A stretch of 37,184 bases of DNA from assembly GCA_947628425.1 (NCBI GenBank), contig CANQZV010000006.1:1-37184 (forward strand), read 5' to 3'. Made by a program: the position numbers and the translations under genes. Below, piece after piece: positions 12,740 through 23,565 of this stretch. The notes under the pieces were generated by a model, which saw only the letters and a list, made by a program, of their open reading frames with translations, did no database searches and was not told the origin of the DNA. The DNA is from an uncultured Clostridia bacterium (GTDB taxonomy: Bacteria > Bacillota > Clostridia > TANB77 > CAG-508). The first letter of the stretch is position 1, and each line of letters starts with the position of its first letter.

Positions 12740-13563
12740 GTGATGAGAAAGCAATTAGAAGAATTATGGAAGTATTCTATCCCATTAATTCCAAATCAAT
12801 TATCTTGGTGGATAATTAATTGTTCTGATAGAACAATTATATCAAGCCTTTTAGGAATAGCTGCTAATGGTGTTTATGCTTTTGTAAATAAATTATCTTC
12901 TATAGTTATAATATTTTTTAATATATTTAATTTAACCTGGGCAGAATCAGCATCTGTTCATATAAAAGATGACAATAGTTCAGAATATTTTACAAAAGTA
13001 TTCAATCTTATTTAAAAAATCTTTGTATCAGTATGTCTTTTAATAATTGCGGTTATTCCAGTAATCTTTAAAATTCTTGTACCTGGTGAAGATTTTTCAA
13101 ATGCATATTATCAAATTCCAATACTATTGATTGCTATATTATTTAACATTACTGTTTCATTTTTTGGTTCAGTATATGTTGCATTAAAAAAAAACAAAGG
13201 AAGTTTCAAAAACTTCGATTTATGCAGCAATAATCAATATAGTTGTAAATCTTGCATTAATTAAATATATAGGATTATATGCTGCATCTTTATCAACTTT
13301 AATAGCTTTTTTAATGATGTCAATTTATAGATATATCGATGTTCAAAAATATATATTAATTAAAATAGATAAAAAAGATTATGATAACTTATATTATATT
13401 TTTTATGATAGCATTGTTAATATATTATATTAGGAGTAATTTTATCTGTTTATTTTTTGTCTTTTCAACTATTATCTTCAATACTTTATATAATAAAGAA
13501 AATATTGCTTGGATAATTAAATCACTGAAAAAATATATTAATACAAAATATAATCTACTATAA
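12740..13563 (+). pseudogene. Truncated, multiply disrupted Wzx-type flippase (polysaccharide biosynthesis protein)
   Basis: LWKYSIPLIPNQLSWWIINCSDRTIISSLLGIAANGVYAFVNKLSSI matches the second half of Wzx-like MOP flippases. In-frame TAA at about 13015, a frame change in the A-run near 13190 (..VALKK / TKEVSKTSIYAAIINIVVNLALIKYIGLYAASLSTLIAFLMM..), and another near 13385 into the 13381-13563 ORF. N-terminal half absent. Confidence 0.85.
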
Positions 13564-15908: not shown

Positions 15909-17132
15909 ATGGAAGGATTATTTGAAGGAAATATTCCAATATTGTATTTTATAGCAGTATTATACATATTGCTTTTAGATAAACTAAAGCTAAACCAAAA
16001 AATATTAATTATTTACATTTTTTCTTATATTATTAAAGCATGTAATATATTGAGTTTTACAAATTTATTGATAATATCTAATATTGACTTTTTTATATAT
16101 TTAGAATATTTAACAGATGATAAAGTTAAGACAGATATTATATCCAATTTTATATATAGAATAACTGATTATTTTTATAAAAAGATTTTTGAGTATAGCT
16201 TATTATATTTCGTACTTGCATTATTTGTTAATACAGCTTATTTTAAAGGATGTTGTAATACAGTATTTAGTTTTATATTGCCTAGCATAGATATTACTAT
16301 ATATTGTAATTGCTTTATATATGCTATATACATTATATTAATAATTATATCTGTTACTTTTTTAAGTATGGAAATATATGCAACCAATACCTTTACAGAT
16401 ATGAAAAGAAAATTAGATAAAGTCACAACTTGGACAGCTTTGGAAATAGATGATATAACTAGAGAAAAACTTTATATGTTATCAAGCATTGAAGATAAAA
16501 GTTTTTTTATTAGAGAAAATTCTTACAGCTTTTTTAGTATAGAATTTATAAAATATAAATTGAATAATTTGAAAACAGCAATTGTTTATTTAAATAATAA
16601 ATCTAAATTAAAAAACAATTTCATTATAAGAATAAAAAAGGCATGTAAATTTATTTTTAGCAAAATAAAAAAACTACGATATATAAAAAAATATTTAAGA
16701 GGTTATTCAACAATTGAAATGCAGTTAATTAGAACAATAGGAATAAAAAATGGATATGGAAAAACACTTTACAGAAAAATATATGAAATAATTTATTCAA
16801 AAATATTCTTTGGAAGTTATAGAAAATACTGTAAAGACAATAAATATAGAGTAATTTGCTCATATAAAGAATATTTAATTTATTGCTATATAAATATAGC
16901 GGATATTAAAATTAATGGTGTAACATATTCGAATATGATAGAAGCATGGAACAAAGATAGTATAAAAGATGTTTCTTTTGAGGAATTTCTAATATCTATT
17001 TTAGGTTTGTCTTGGAGAAATATTAATGATGATATTTTAAGAAATTATTCTATAACTATAAAGAATTTTGATATACAAGAAGATGAATTGAAAAATAACA
17101 TAAAAGAAATTTCCTCAAAAGCAAAAGGTTAG
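15909..17132 (+). CDS. Multi-TM membrane protein with divergent GT51 (peptidoglycan transglycosylase)-like domain
   Basis: 407 aa. N-terminal hydrophobic segments, then MLSSIEDKSFFIREN, YLRGYSTIEMQLIRTIGIKN, TLYRKIYEIIYSKI, YKEYLIYCYINIADIKINGVTYSNMIEAW, aligning by eye with GT51 motifs EDxxFxxH, RGxSTIxxQ, RKxxE and the ILExYLN block. Start uncertain: no clear RBS at 15909. Confidence 0.6.
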   Translation: MEGLFEGNIPILYFIAVLYILLLDKLKLNQKILIIYIFSYIIKACNILSFTNLLIISNIDFFIYLEYLTDDKVKTDIISNFIYRITDYFYKKIFEYSLLYFVLALFVNTAYFKGCCNTVFSFILPSIDITIYCNCFIYAIYIILIIISVTFLSMEIYATNTFTDMKRKLDKVTTWTALEIDDITREKLYMLSSIEDKSFFIRENSYSFFSIEFIKYKLNNLKTAIVYLNNKSKLKNNFIIRIKKACKFIFSKIKKLRYIKKYLRGYSTIEMQLIRTIGIKNGYGKTLYRKIYEIIYSKIFFGSYRKYCKDNKYRVICSYKEYLIYCYINIADIKINGVTYSNMIEAWNKDSIKDVSFEEFLISILGLSWRNINDDILRNYSITIKNFDIQEDELKNNIKEISSKAKG

Positions 17133-17188
17133 TAAAATATAAGGTAGAAAGATTAATTCTAAAAAAAAAAGAAAGAAGGTGTGCAGAT

Positions 17189-17716
17189 ATGAATAAAGTT
17201 AATCCTAATGATGTTGCAAAATGGTTTTGTAGTAAAAATATAATTGAAAACCAAAATTCTGAAGATGGAAATATGAAGTTGCAAAAATTATTATTTTTTG
17301 CACAACTAATTTATATGGAAAAACATAATGGAGAAACAATGTTTGATGAAAGGTTTAACGCTTTTAAAAATGGAATGGTTTTAGAAAGAATTAGAAAAGA
17401 ATATAAAAATAATTATAAACAATTTATTGTAAATGTAAATGATTTAACATTTGATGAAGAAATATTGGAAAGTCTAAAACTTACTGTAAATATATTTGGT
17501 GATGCATCTGCACAAGAACTTTCAGAATTATCACATGAATTTGATGGTTGGAATAAATATTTTAAAAAATCGACTACAACATTAGGAAGATATATAAAAA
17601 AATTATCTATAGTTCCATATGATGAAATTAGAAAGGAACTATATAAAATAAAAAAAGTTTTAGATGCCTATGAAGTAACCTCAAAATTTAATTATAATGG
17701 AGCAGAAGATTATTGA
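17189..17716 (+). CDS. Panacea-domain (DUF4065, SocA-like) putative antitoxin
   Basis: 175 aa. VAKWFCSKN...MKLQKLLFFAQLIYMEKHNGETMFDERFNAFKNGMVLERI...ELSELSHEFDGWNKY. RBS GAAGGTG. Confidence 0.8.
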   Translation: MNKVNPNDVAKWFCSKNIIENQNSEDGNMKLQKLLFFAQLIYMEKHNGETMFDERFNAFKNGMVLERIRKEYKNNYKQFIVNVNDLTFDEEILESLKLTVNIFGDASAQELSELSHEFDGWNKYFKKSTTTLGRYIKKLSIVPYDEIRKELYKIKKVLDAYEVTSKFNYNGAEDY

Positions 17717-17841
17717 TTGAAAAGAGACAAATTCTTAATTTTCTTCCACCTAAATTAGATGGTAATTTCATTAGTGATAAAAGAAGGTACATGATAGTTA
17801 CAAAAAATAATAATAGTATTGAAATGATTAATATATCATAA
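17713..17841 (+). pseudogene. Short ORF resembling the N-terminus of a PemK/MazF-like toxin, truncated by a stop
   Basis: TTG start overlaps the Panacea stop (TTGA). LIEKRQILNFLPPKLDGNFISDKRRYMIVTKNNNSIEMINIS* and, in the same frame past the stop, IDGKSAKLLKTK, which resembles continuation of a PemK-like fold. Confidence 0.4.
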
Positions 17842-17878
17842 ATAGATGGTAAAAGTGCAAAATTATTAAAAACAAAAG

Positions 17879-17910
17879 CTACTTTTGTAATTTTCAAAAG
17901 TAGTTCTTAT
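17879..17910 (+). terminator. Rho-independent-like terminator
   Basis: CTACTTTTG / CAAAAGTAG, perfect 9 bp, followed by TTCTTATTTT. Confidence 0.7.
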
Positions 17911-21499: not shown

Positions 21500-21609
21500 A
21501 GTTTAAAATTATAAGTTGTAAATAATATCCTATAAATTTAATTTTGAACTTAATATTTCAAATATTAAATATCTTTATTTATAATAAAAACAGAAGAAAG
21601 GAATTAAAT

Positions 21610-23565
21610 ATGGAAGAGTTAGTTGAAAGTATATTAGATTATGTTAGATCAGATTATACAGATTATGCTATTATGATTAATGGTGAATGGGGAAGTGGAA
21701 AAACATATTTCTGGAACCATAAAATTAGAAATAAAATAGAAACAATGCATATTAATGGCAAGCAATTTACTACTATTTATATGTCTTTATATGGTATTTC
21801 TAACTTAGAGGAAATTAGTAAAAAAATATTTATAGAAACAACACAATTAATGGATAAAAACTTAAAAAAATTTATGAATAGCAATAATCAAACTAATATC
21901 CCTGAATATGCGAAAACAGGGTTAGATATGGCAAACTTTTTTGGTGTTACGCAAAATGGAGATAGAATTGATTATGCAGATTTCTTTTCAACCGATGATA
22001 AAATTTTATGTTTTGATGACTTAGAAAGAGCAAATGTTGATGTTATAGATATTCTTGGTTATATTAATAATTTTGTTGAACATGACCATATTAAAACAAT
22101 TATTATATGTAATGAAAAAGAACTTGCTACAAAATTAAAAAGTAGTAATCTAGAAATGAAAACATTTATTGCTACTTATTTATTAGATAAAGAAGGTGAT
22201 TTATCTAAAGTATCAGATAAACCTATTGTAGAAAAAATTCAAGATAAAATTGAATATGTATTTGACAAAGCTAATGATTATGAAAGAATAAAAGAAAAAT
22301 TAATAGGTGAAACATTTGAATATGCACCTGAATTTACTTATATTATAAATGGATTATTAATGCGTTATGAAAATGATCCAGAGTTAATTAGGTTTTTAAG
22401 AGAAAATACAAGACTAATTATTTCTACATTTAATAAAAGTGGAACAAGAAACTTAAGAATTTTAAAGCATGCTTTAAATGATTTTAAAAAGATATTTGAC
22501 ATGGTAAATAAAAACTACCCAAATACAAACCAAAGAGTATTACAAACAATGTTAATATTTACAATTGCAGTTTCTTTTGAAATAAAAGCAGGTAAAATAA
22601 CAAAAGATAAATTTATTAATATTAAAGACAATGAAGAGTACAAATCTATTTTAGTATCATCAAGAGTTTTAATGGATAATAGGCAATTTTATATTAAAGA
22701 ATTTGATAATAATTATTATTATAATTTTAAGTCAGAATATAGATTTTTCAAATTTATTGAAATTTATGTACGAACTAGAATATTTGATATGAAAGTATTT
22801 AAAGAAAATATGGAGGTAATTAGAAACACAGTAGATACTGCAAAATTACCTGGATATAAAAGGCTTTTAACAGAAGAATATTGGAAAATTGATGATGACG
22901 AATTTGGAGGAGTTATAGAGGAAGTAATTGAAAATTTAAAAACTGGAAAAATTAATTTAATAGATATGGTTAAATTATTTGGATACTTTAGTTATTTTAT
23001 AAAAAAAGATTTAATAGATTATGAAATGAAAACCATAAAAATGCTATTTTTCAACGGAATGAATGTAGCTGCTCTTACTTCTGAATACTGTCCAAATATT
23101 GAAGAGGAATTAGATAAAGTTGCATTTATTGAGCATGACCAAGATATGGAAGAAATACTAAAACATTTTCATCAATTAAATAGTAAATTAAAAGAAAAAA
23201 TGTACAAAGAAAAAGCAGAAGAAATTTTTAAATGTATTCCAATGAAAATGGAAATGTTTTATGAAAGATTTGATAATGAATGTATGAAAGAGCCTATTTT
23301 TAAATATTATGATCCATTCCAAATGTTTCAAAGAATATCTTGTGCAAGTAATGAAGATATAGTTACAATTAAAGAAAAATTATTAAATAGAGCAGAATTA
23401 TATAGTAATAAATTAGAGCCAGAAATGAAAAATATAAAACAATTGAAACAAATTATAGATGACTATACAAAATCTAAAGATAATAGCATAAAATTAGTTA
23501 TGTTAAAAGATTTTTCTAAAGCAATTGGAACAATAATAGAAAAAGCAAATTCTTCTAATAATTAA
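21610..23565 (+). CDS. KAP-family P-loop NTPase
   Basis: Start placed at ATG 21610 with RBS AGAAAGG, not at 21544. Walker A INGEWGSGKTYFW, Walker B ILCFDDLERANVDVIDILGYINNFVEH, then a large alpha-helical C-terminal region. Confidence 0.8.
   Translation: MEELVESILDYVRSDYTDYAIMINGEWGSGKTYFWNHKIRNKIETMHINGKQFTTIYMSLYGISNLEEISKKIFIETTQLMDKNLKKFMNSNNQTNIPEYAKTGLDMANFFGVTQNGDRIDYADFFSTDDKILCFDDLERANVDVIDILGYINNFVEHDHIKTIIICNEKELATKLKSSNLEMKTFIATYLLDKEGDLSKVSDKPIVEKIQDKIEYVFDKANDYERIKEKLIGETFEYAPEFTYIINGLLMRYENDPELIRFLRENTRLIISTFNKSGTRNLRILKHALNDFKKIFDMVNKNYPNTNQRVLQTMLIFTIAVSFEIKAGKITKDKFINIKDNEEYKSILVSSRVLMDNRQFYIKEFDNNYYYNFKSEYRFFKFIEIYVRTRIFDMKVFKENMEVIRNTVDTAKLPGYKRLLTEEYWKIDDDEFGGVIEEVIENLKTGKINLIDMVKLFGYFSYFIKKDLIDYEMKTIKMLFFNGMNVAALTSEYCPNIEEELDKVAFIEHDQDMEEILKHFHQLNSKLKEKMYKEKAEEIFKCIPMKMEMFYERFDNECMKEPIFKYYDPFQMFQRISCASNEDIVTIKEKLLNRAELYSNKLEPEMKNIKQLKQIIDDYTKSKDNSIKLVMLKDFSKAIGTIIEKANSSNN

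Follow-up and report, generated by a model that had tools for sequence, protein, structure and literature searches.

The window, by which we mean the whole 37,184-nt stretch of DNA analyzed here, contains a gene for a 407-aa membrane protein whose C-terminal domain resembles glycosyltransferases of family GT51 (hereafter, the GT51-like gene). It is followed on the same strand, after 56 nt, by a gene for a Panacea/SocA antitoxin-domain protein (PanA), which matches the Pfam family SocA_Panacea above its cut-off (E = 4.3e-11), and then by a truncated ORF and a hairpin (Table 1). A sequence-only reading of this DNA had described the N-terminal hydrophobic segments, the GT51 motifs and the Panacea-domain protein, and all of these are indeed present; the position at which it closed the region, 17841, is where the truncated third ORF stops, an ORF that it had omitted. 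A short flippase-like ORF at positions 12740-13015 appears to be a remnant, as would fit a capsule locus in decay.

Table 1. Features of the GT51-like gene and the neighboring Panacea module, in window coordinates
Feature	Coordinates	Strand	Basis or remark
GT51-like multi-TM protein, 407 aa	15909..17132	+	homology, AlphaFold2 models, Foldseek, dN/dS
Hydrophobic segments (about five), aa 9-154	within 15909..17132		
GT51-derived domain, aa ~160-407	within 15909..17132		
Motif 1, E195-D196 (SIEDKSFF), counterpart of the GT51 catalytic Glu	16491..16496	+	HMM alignment, 21-member alignment
Motif 2, RGYSTIEMQLIR (canonical GGSTITQQL)	16698..16733	+	HMM alignment, 21-member alignment
Motif 3, RKIYE, ending in E293, the second of the conserved Glu residues	16773..16787	+	HMM alignment, 21-member alignment
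Panacea/SocA antitoxin-domain protein (PanA), 175 aa	17189..17716	+	Pfam; different module from the GT51-like gene
Truncated remnant of PanA's partner, 42 aa, TTG start	17713..17841	+	4-nt overlap with PanA; homologue in genome G003
Terminator-like hairpin after the PanA-remnant module	17877..17905	+	pattern match only

The match of the 407-aa ORF to the Pfam family PF00912 (Transgly) lies below the family cut-off (E = 0.0025), and such a sub-threshold match was obtained for 8 of 16 members of the GT51-like family. GT51 ancestry was therefore tested at the family level, by HMM-HMM alignment (hhalign) of the GT51-like domain with canonical GT51 sequences from the window's relatives; the window's own genome also has a canonical GT51 gene (contig C1:35853). 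The alignment scored 38.8 (P = 5.3e-5), compared with at most 20.8 in 100 column-shuffles and 17.1 with a reversed profile, and the motifs of the two families were all collinear in it. Searches of the PDB by sequence, with either the single protein or a four-sequence profile, did not find GT51. AlphaFold2 models of the protein were built on 12 to 15 sequences, and a Foldseek search with the full-length model gave nothing significant, its hits being dominated by GPCRs and other unrelated helical membrane proteins. Isolating the GT51-like domain solved this problem: the top ten PDB hits for the C-terminal domain model were all GT51, the best with a weak E value (0.017) and a probability of 0.98. 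As the HMM-HMM score exceeded those of the shuffles, the motifs were collinear and the Foldseek top ten consisted of GT51, the GT51 observation is better than chance, and GT51 ancestry of the C-terminal domain is supported.

Conservation of the catalytic motifs within the family was counted in a 21-member alignment, from which the locus L062 (Enterococcus italicus) was left out because its GT51-like gene is partly masked with N. E195 and D196 of motif 1, R264-G265 and Q272 of motif 2 and K290 are each present in 21 of 21 members, and R275 of motif 2 is likewise invariant; E293 is kept in 20, the one outlier having Asp. The motif-1 catalytic Glu corresponds to E233 of Escherichia coli PBP1b (PMC4632607). 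The full canonical motif set (ED..F..HxG; ILExYLN) is absent: the HxG of motif 1 is replaced in the family, with a conserved R202 nearby, and the motif-4 Glu is replaced as well. Given these two losses, the activity of the domain may be altered. A divergent member in the Enterococcus family (L122, 6091-7329) retains the canonical QQ of motif 2 and has no motif-3 Glu; it is possibly an intermediate or decayed form. In Roseburia-type members (L054, L052 and L069), the protein is extended at its C terminus by about 200 aa; this added region has no Pfam match and, by eye, looks papain/NlpC-like (C..F.. and H.Q..).

The distribution of charged residues suggests an unusual orientation. The mean number of Lys plus Arg residues is 2.0 in loop 1, 4.4 in loop 3 and 3.9 in the stretch after TM5, versus 0 in the N-terminal tail and 0.6 in each of loops 2 and 4. 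By the positive-inside rule, this distribution indicates an N-out, C-in topology with the GT51-like domain toward the cytosol, so that the domain is predicted to face the side of the membrane opposite to that of canonical GT51.

The family is rare and horizontally scattered in Bacillota. Searching genome contigs with the single protein from the window gave no match, and tblastn found one faecal contig and one copy on a Lactococcus plasmid; an alignment-based search of the genome contigs recovered 15 loci, to which whole-genome searches added several. Carriers make up 2 of 392 genomes in the window's class, 6 of 397 in the family of the Anaerostipes genome containing L061 and 7 of 107 in the family of the Enterococcus genome containing L051, and each of the 12 carrier genomes tested has a single copy. 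In a FastTree phylogeny, the window copy groups with L049, which is embedded in a restriction-modification (RM) operon. Comparison of the GT51-like gene with that of G003, a genome of the same genus, gave a dN/dS of about 0.25 for the C-terminal 131 codons, indicating that the gene is maintained; on this value and the open frames in 21 members, a decaying pseudogene was rejected. Searches of viral contigs found no relative, and a phage origin was rejected. The sole "phage" record matched, MT836124, contains TRAP-transporter-like and restriction-like genes, and we read it as bacterial DNA.

By locus counts, the GT51-like gene is recurrently sited within or next to known defense operons. At three loci (L049, L056 and L059), it falls after hsdS and before hsdR in a type I RM operon, with hsdM upstream. 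The likely GTG start of the L049 gene is 1 nt past the hsdS stop, with hsdR about 10 nt further on, whereas extra small genes separate hsdS from the GT51-like gene at L059. Identity is 50% between the proteins of L056 and L059 and 30% between either of them and that of L049; the hsdS-hsdR position has thus probably been occupied by two lineages, and these RM loci may represent no more than those two. At L052, the GT51-like gene is the third gene after rdrA and rdrB, with successive overlaps of 4 and 8 nt; RdrA and RdrB were identified by PADLOC (E = 8.7e-15 and 3e-30, respectively), and RdrB also matches the solved RADAR deaminase 8fnw (3.5e-30). Elsewhere, a GmrSD-like gene adjoins the GT51-like gene (L047), DRT2 lies 2.6 kb from it (L121) or RhuM (PDC-S05) shares an island with it (L074). 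Roughly half the loci lack a clear defense neighbor, among them L053, L055, L057, L060, L063, L073, the plasmid locus L048 and the window itself.

Some of these neighborhoods have further features. In the Enterococcus loci L051 and L062, a Ser/Thr kinase gene comes next after the GT51-like gene and is followed by a gene for a conserved hypothetical protein of 94 aa (L051, 8348-8632; L062, 5352-5633 and 8774-9058), of which L062 has two copies, the second lying upstream. At L074 (3519-3827 and 7800-9779), the island, which carries a transposase fragment besides RhuM and the GT51-like gene, seems to have entered uvrB at its 5' end, so that a fragment of 102 aa from the start of uvrB now lies on the far side of the island.

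The sequence-only reading had proposed that the GT51-like protein is a toxin neutralized by the neighboring Panacea protein, which would make the two a new PanA-PanT pair. Their shared strand and close spacing agree with this proposal, as does G003, where the two genes are again near each other and in the same order; Panacea is, moreover, hyperpromiscuous as an antitoxin domain, and some of the known PanT toxins act on membranes (PMC8832971). However, synteny assigns PanA a different partner. In G003, an intact 138-aa ORF that matches phrog_13386 lies directly 3' of PanA, and its first part matches the window's 42-aa remnant. In genome G079, PanA is accompanied by an intact, weakly homologous ORF of 142 aa, and in G024 by a 52-aa remnant of the partner. 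The ORF that PanA overlaps in the window is therefore intact in two of these genomes, G003 and G079, whereas G024, like the window, has a decayed form. A galE-like gene separates the GT51-like gene from PanA in G003, and the dS values between the window and G003 differ for the two genes (0.32 versus 0.67). A search for the GT51-like gene in 58 relatives (including G024 but not G079) returned only the window and G003, and none of the GT51-like loci outside the window's genus has Panacea nearby, contrary to the recurrent linkage to Panacea/DUF4065 expected of a pair. The PanA frame is open in the window even though its partner toxin is broken. As a broken partner of its own adjoins PanA here and galE intervenes in G003, the GT51-like gene is only a neighbor: PanA in the window belongs, as antitoxin, with a different toxin gene that has decayed, and we regard a toxin-antitoxin pairing of the two as very improbable. 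Of the earlier proposal, then, the GT51-derived multi-TM protein stood up to profile and Foldseek comparison and the pairing with Panacea fell to synteny. Adjacency to Panacea does not make a gene its toxin where the true partner has decayed.

A 563-aa frame at 1426-3114 of L029 (G030 C4), beside hsdR and hsdM, combines a Panacea domain with HsdS-like sequence, and on this reading Panacea is fused to, or inside, a type I RM operon. In the window (21544-23565) and in L036 (6069-8075), a protein that reads as a KAP-type P-loop NTPase is encoded near PanA.

We consider it probable, with moderate confidence, that the 407-aa ORF belongs to a rare membrane family in which a GT51 domain behind about five TM segments serves as a component of antiphage defense, with Panacea as a neighbor. 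GT51 homology, conserved catalytic residues, defense contexts and purifying selection were all observed computationally. The protein is possibly a growth-inhibiting membrane effector, acting in an antiphage setting rather than in a Panacea toxin-antitoxin module. In the mechanism that we consider most likely, the partner system or infection itself would trigger the GT51-like domain, which would then bind or polymerize lipid II, or a similar undecaprenyl-PP-linked sugar, at the inner leaflet. Misplaced polymerization, or the holding of the lipid-linked sugar, could halt envelope synthesis or damage the membrane, and the resulting arrest or damage would stop phage spread. More tentatively, and in our view unlikely in this full form, the family could represent a class of abortive-infection effectors, namely, cytosol-facing GT51 lipid II polymerases that RADAR or restriction complexes would activate during infection and that, by making glycan at the wrong membrane face, would destroy the lipid II or undecaprenyl-phosphate cycle of the cell.

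The main rival to an inner-leaflet lipid II effector is an idle GT51 domain that does not polymerize but serves as a sensor of lipid II or undecaprenyl-PP, or as an anchor bringing the restriction enzyme or RADAR to the membrane. The loss of the motif-1 HxG and the motif-4 Glu fits an idle domain, and the coupling of the family to quite different effector enzymes is what might be seen with an accessory membrane subunit, such as the accessory proteins Csx27 or SLATT that occur in RADAR variants (PMC7699616; PMC11676413). Yet both acidic catalytic residues persist in 20 to 21 of 21 members, which is beyond what binding alone requires, and stand-alone copies are at odds with an idle recruiter; we see this role as a minority possibility, albeit one to be taken seriously. 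Less probable still is an envelope-modifying or immunity protein, for example, for bacteriocin immunity or as a capsule-linked polymerase, that travels on mobile elements and merely sits beside defense genes. The window copy within a capsule locus, the Lactococcus copy on a plasmid and the many solitary loci would suit such a protein, but the stop-start coupling inside hsd and rdr operons is unexpected for a random passenger, and the capsule link is absent from loci outside the window's genus.

The GT51-like family appears to be undescribed as a phage-defense component in PADLOC, NCBIfam and the literature searched. PADLOC and PHROGs profiles gave no match among the members tested, and NCBIfam gave one weak match, to PBP_1a, among 16 members. 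Literature searches for Panacea together with a transglycosylase, GT51 or lipid II in phage defense found nothing relevant, and the Panacea and RADAR papers examined do not mention a GT51 partner; for PMC8832971 and PMC10440598, the text searched names no GT51, transglycosylase or lipid toxin. If the defense reading is true, the peptidoglycan precursor cycle joins the targets of antiphage defense, and a cell wall enzyme domain is a modular membrane part common to two unrelated systems, type I restriction and RADAR.

Compared with the GT51 enzymes (monofunctional MGT and class A PBPs; PF00912), the family shares the collinear ED, GxST..Q and RKxxE motifs, the YL..Y and GL signatures, the two acidic residues and, by Foldseek, the fold family. 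It differs in the number of TM segments (about five, against one), in the predicted cytosolic location of a domain that acts outside in canonical GT51 proteins, in the lack of a transpeptidase domain, in scoring below the Pfam gathering threshold and in its accessory distribution. The anticodon nuclease PrrC is an effector embedded in a type I RM operon. Like PrrC-type effectors, the GT51-like gene is an extra gene in an hsd operon, and by analogy it may provide a second line once restriction is blocked; unlike PrrC, it encodes a membrane protein, lies between hsdS and hsdR and has no nuclease homology. With respect to the PanA-PanT pairs (PMC8832971; PMC10440598), the window's PanA is a normal Panacea protein whose partner, of the 138-aa type (phrog_13386), is the broken ORF that follows it, whereas the GT51-like gene has no Panacea linkage elsewhere. 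RADAR is known with accessory Csx27 or SLATT (PMC7699616), and L052 resembles these variants in that a membrane-protein gene has been added to the rdrA-rdrB operon. The GT51-like protein is nevertheless distinct from both, since its domain is unrelated to theirs and it occurs also within type I RM operons and alone.
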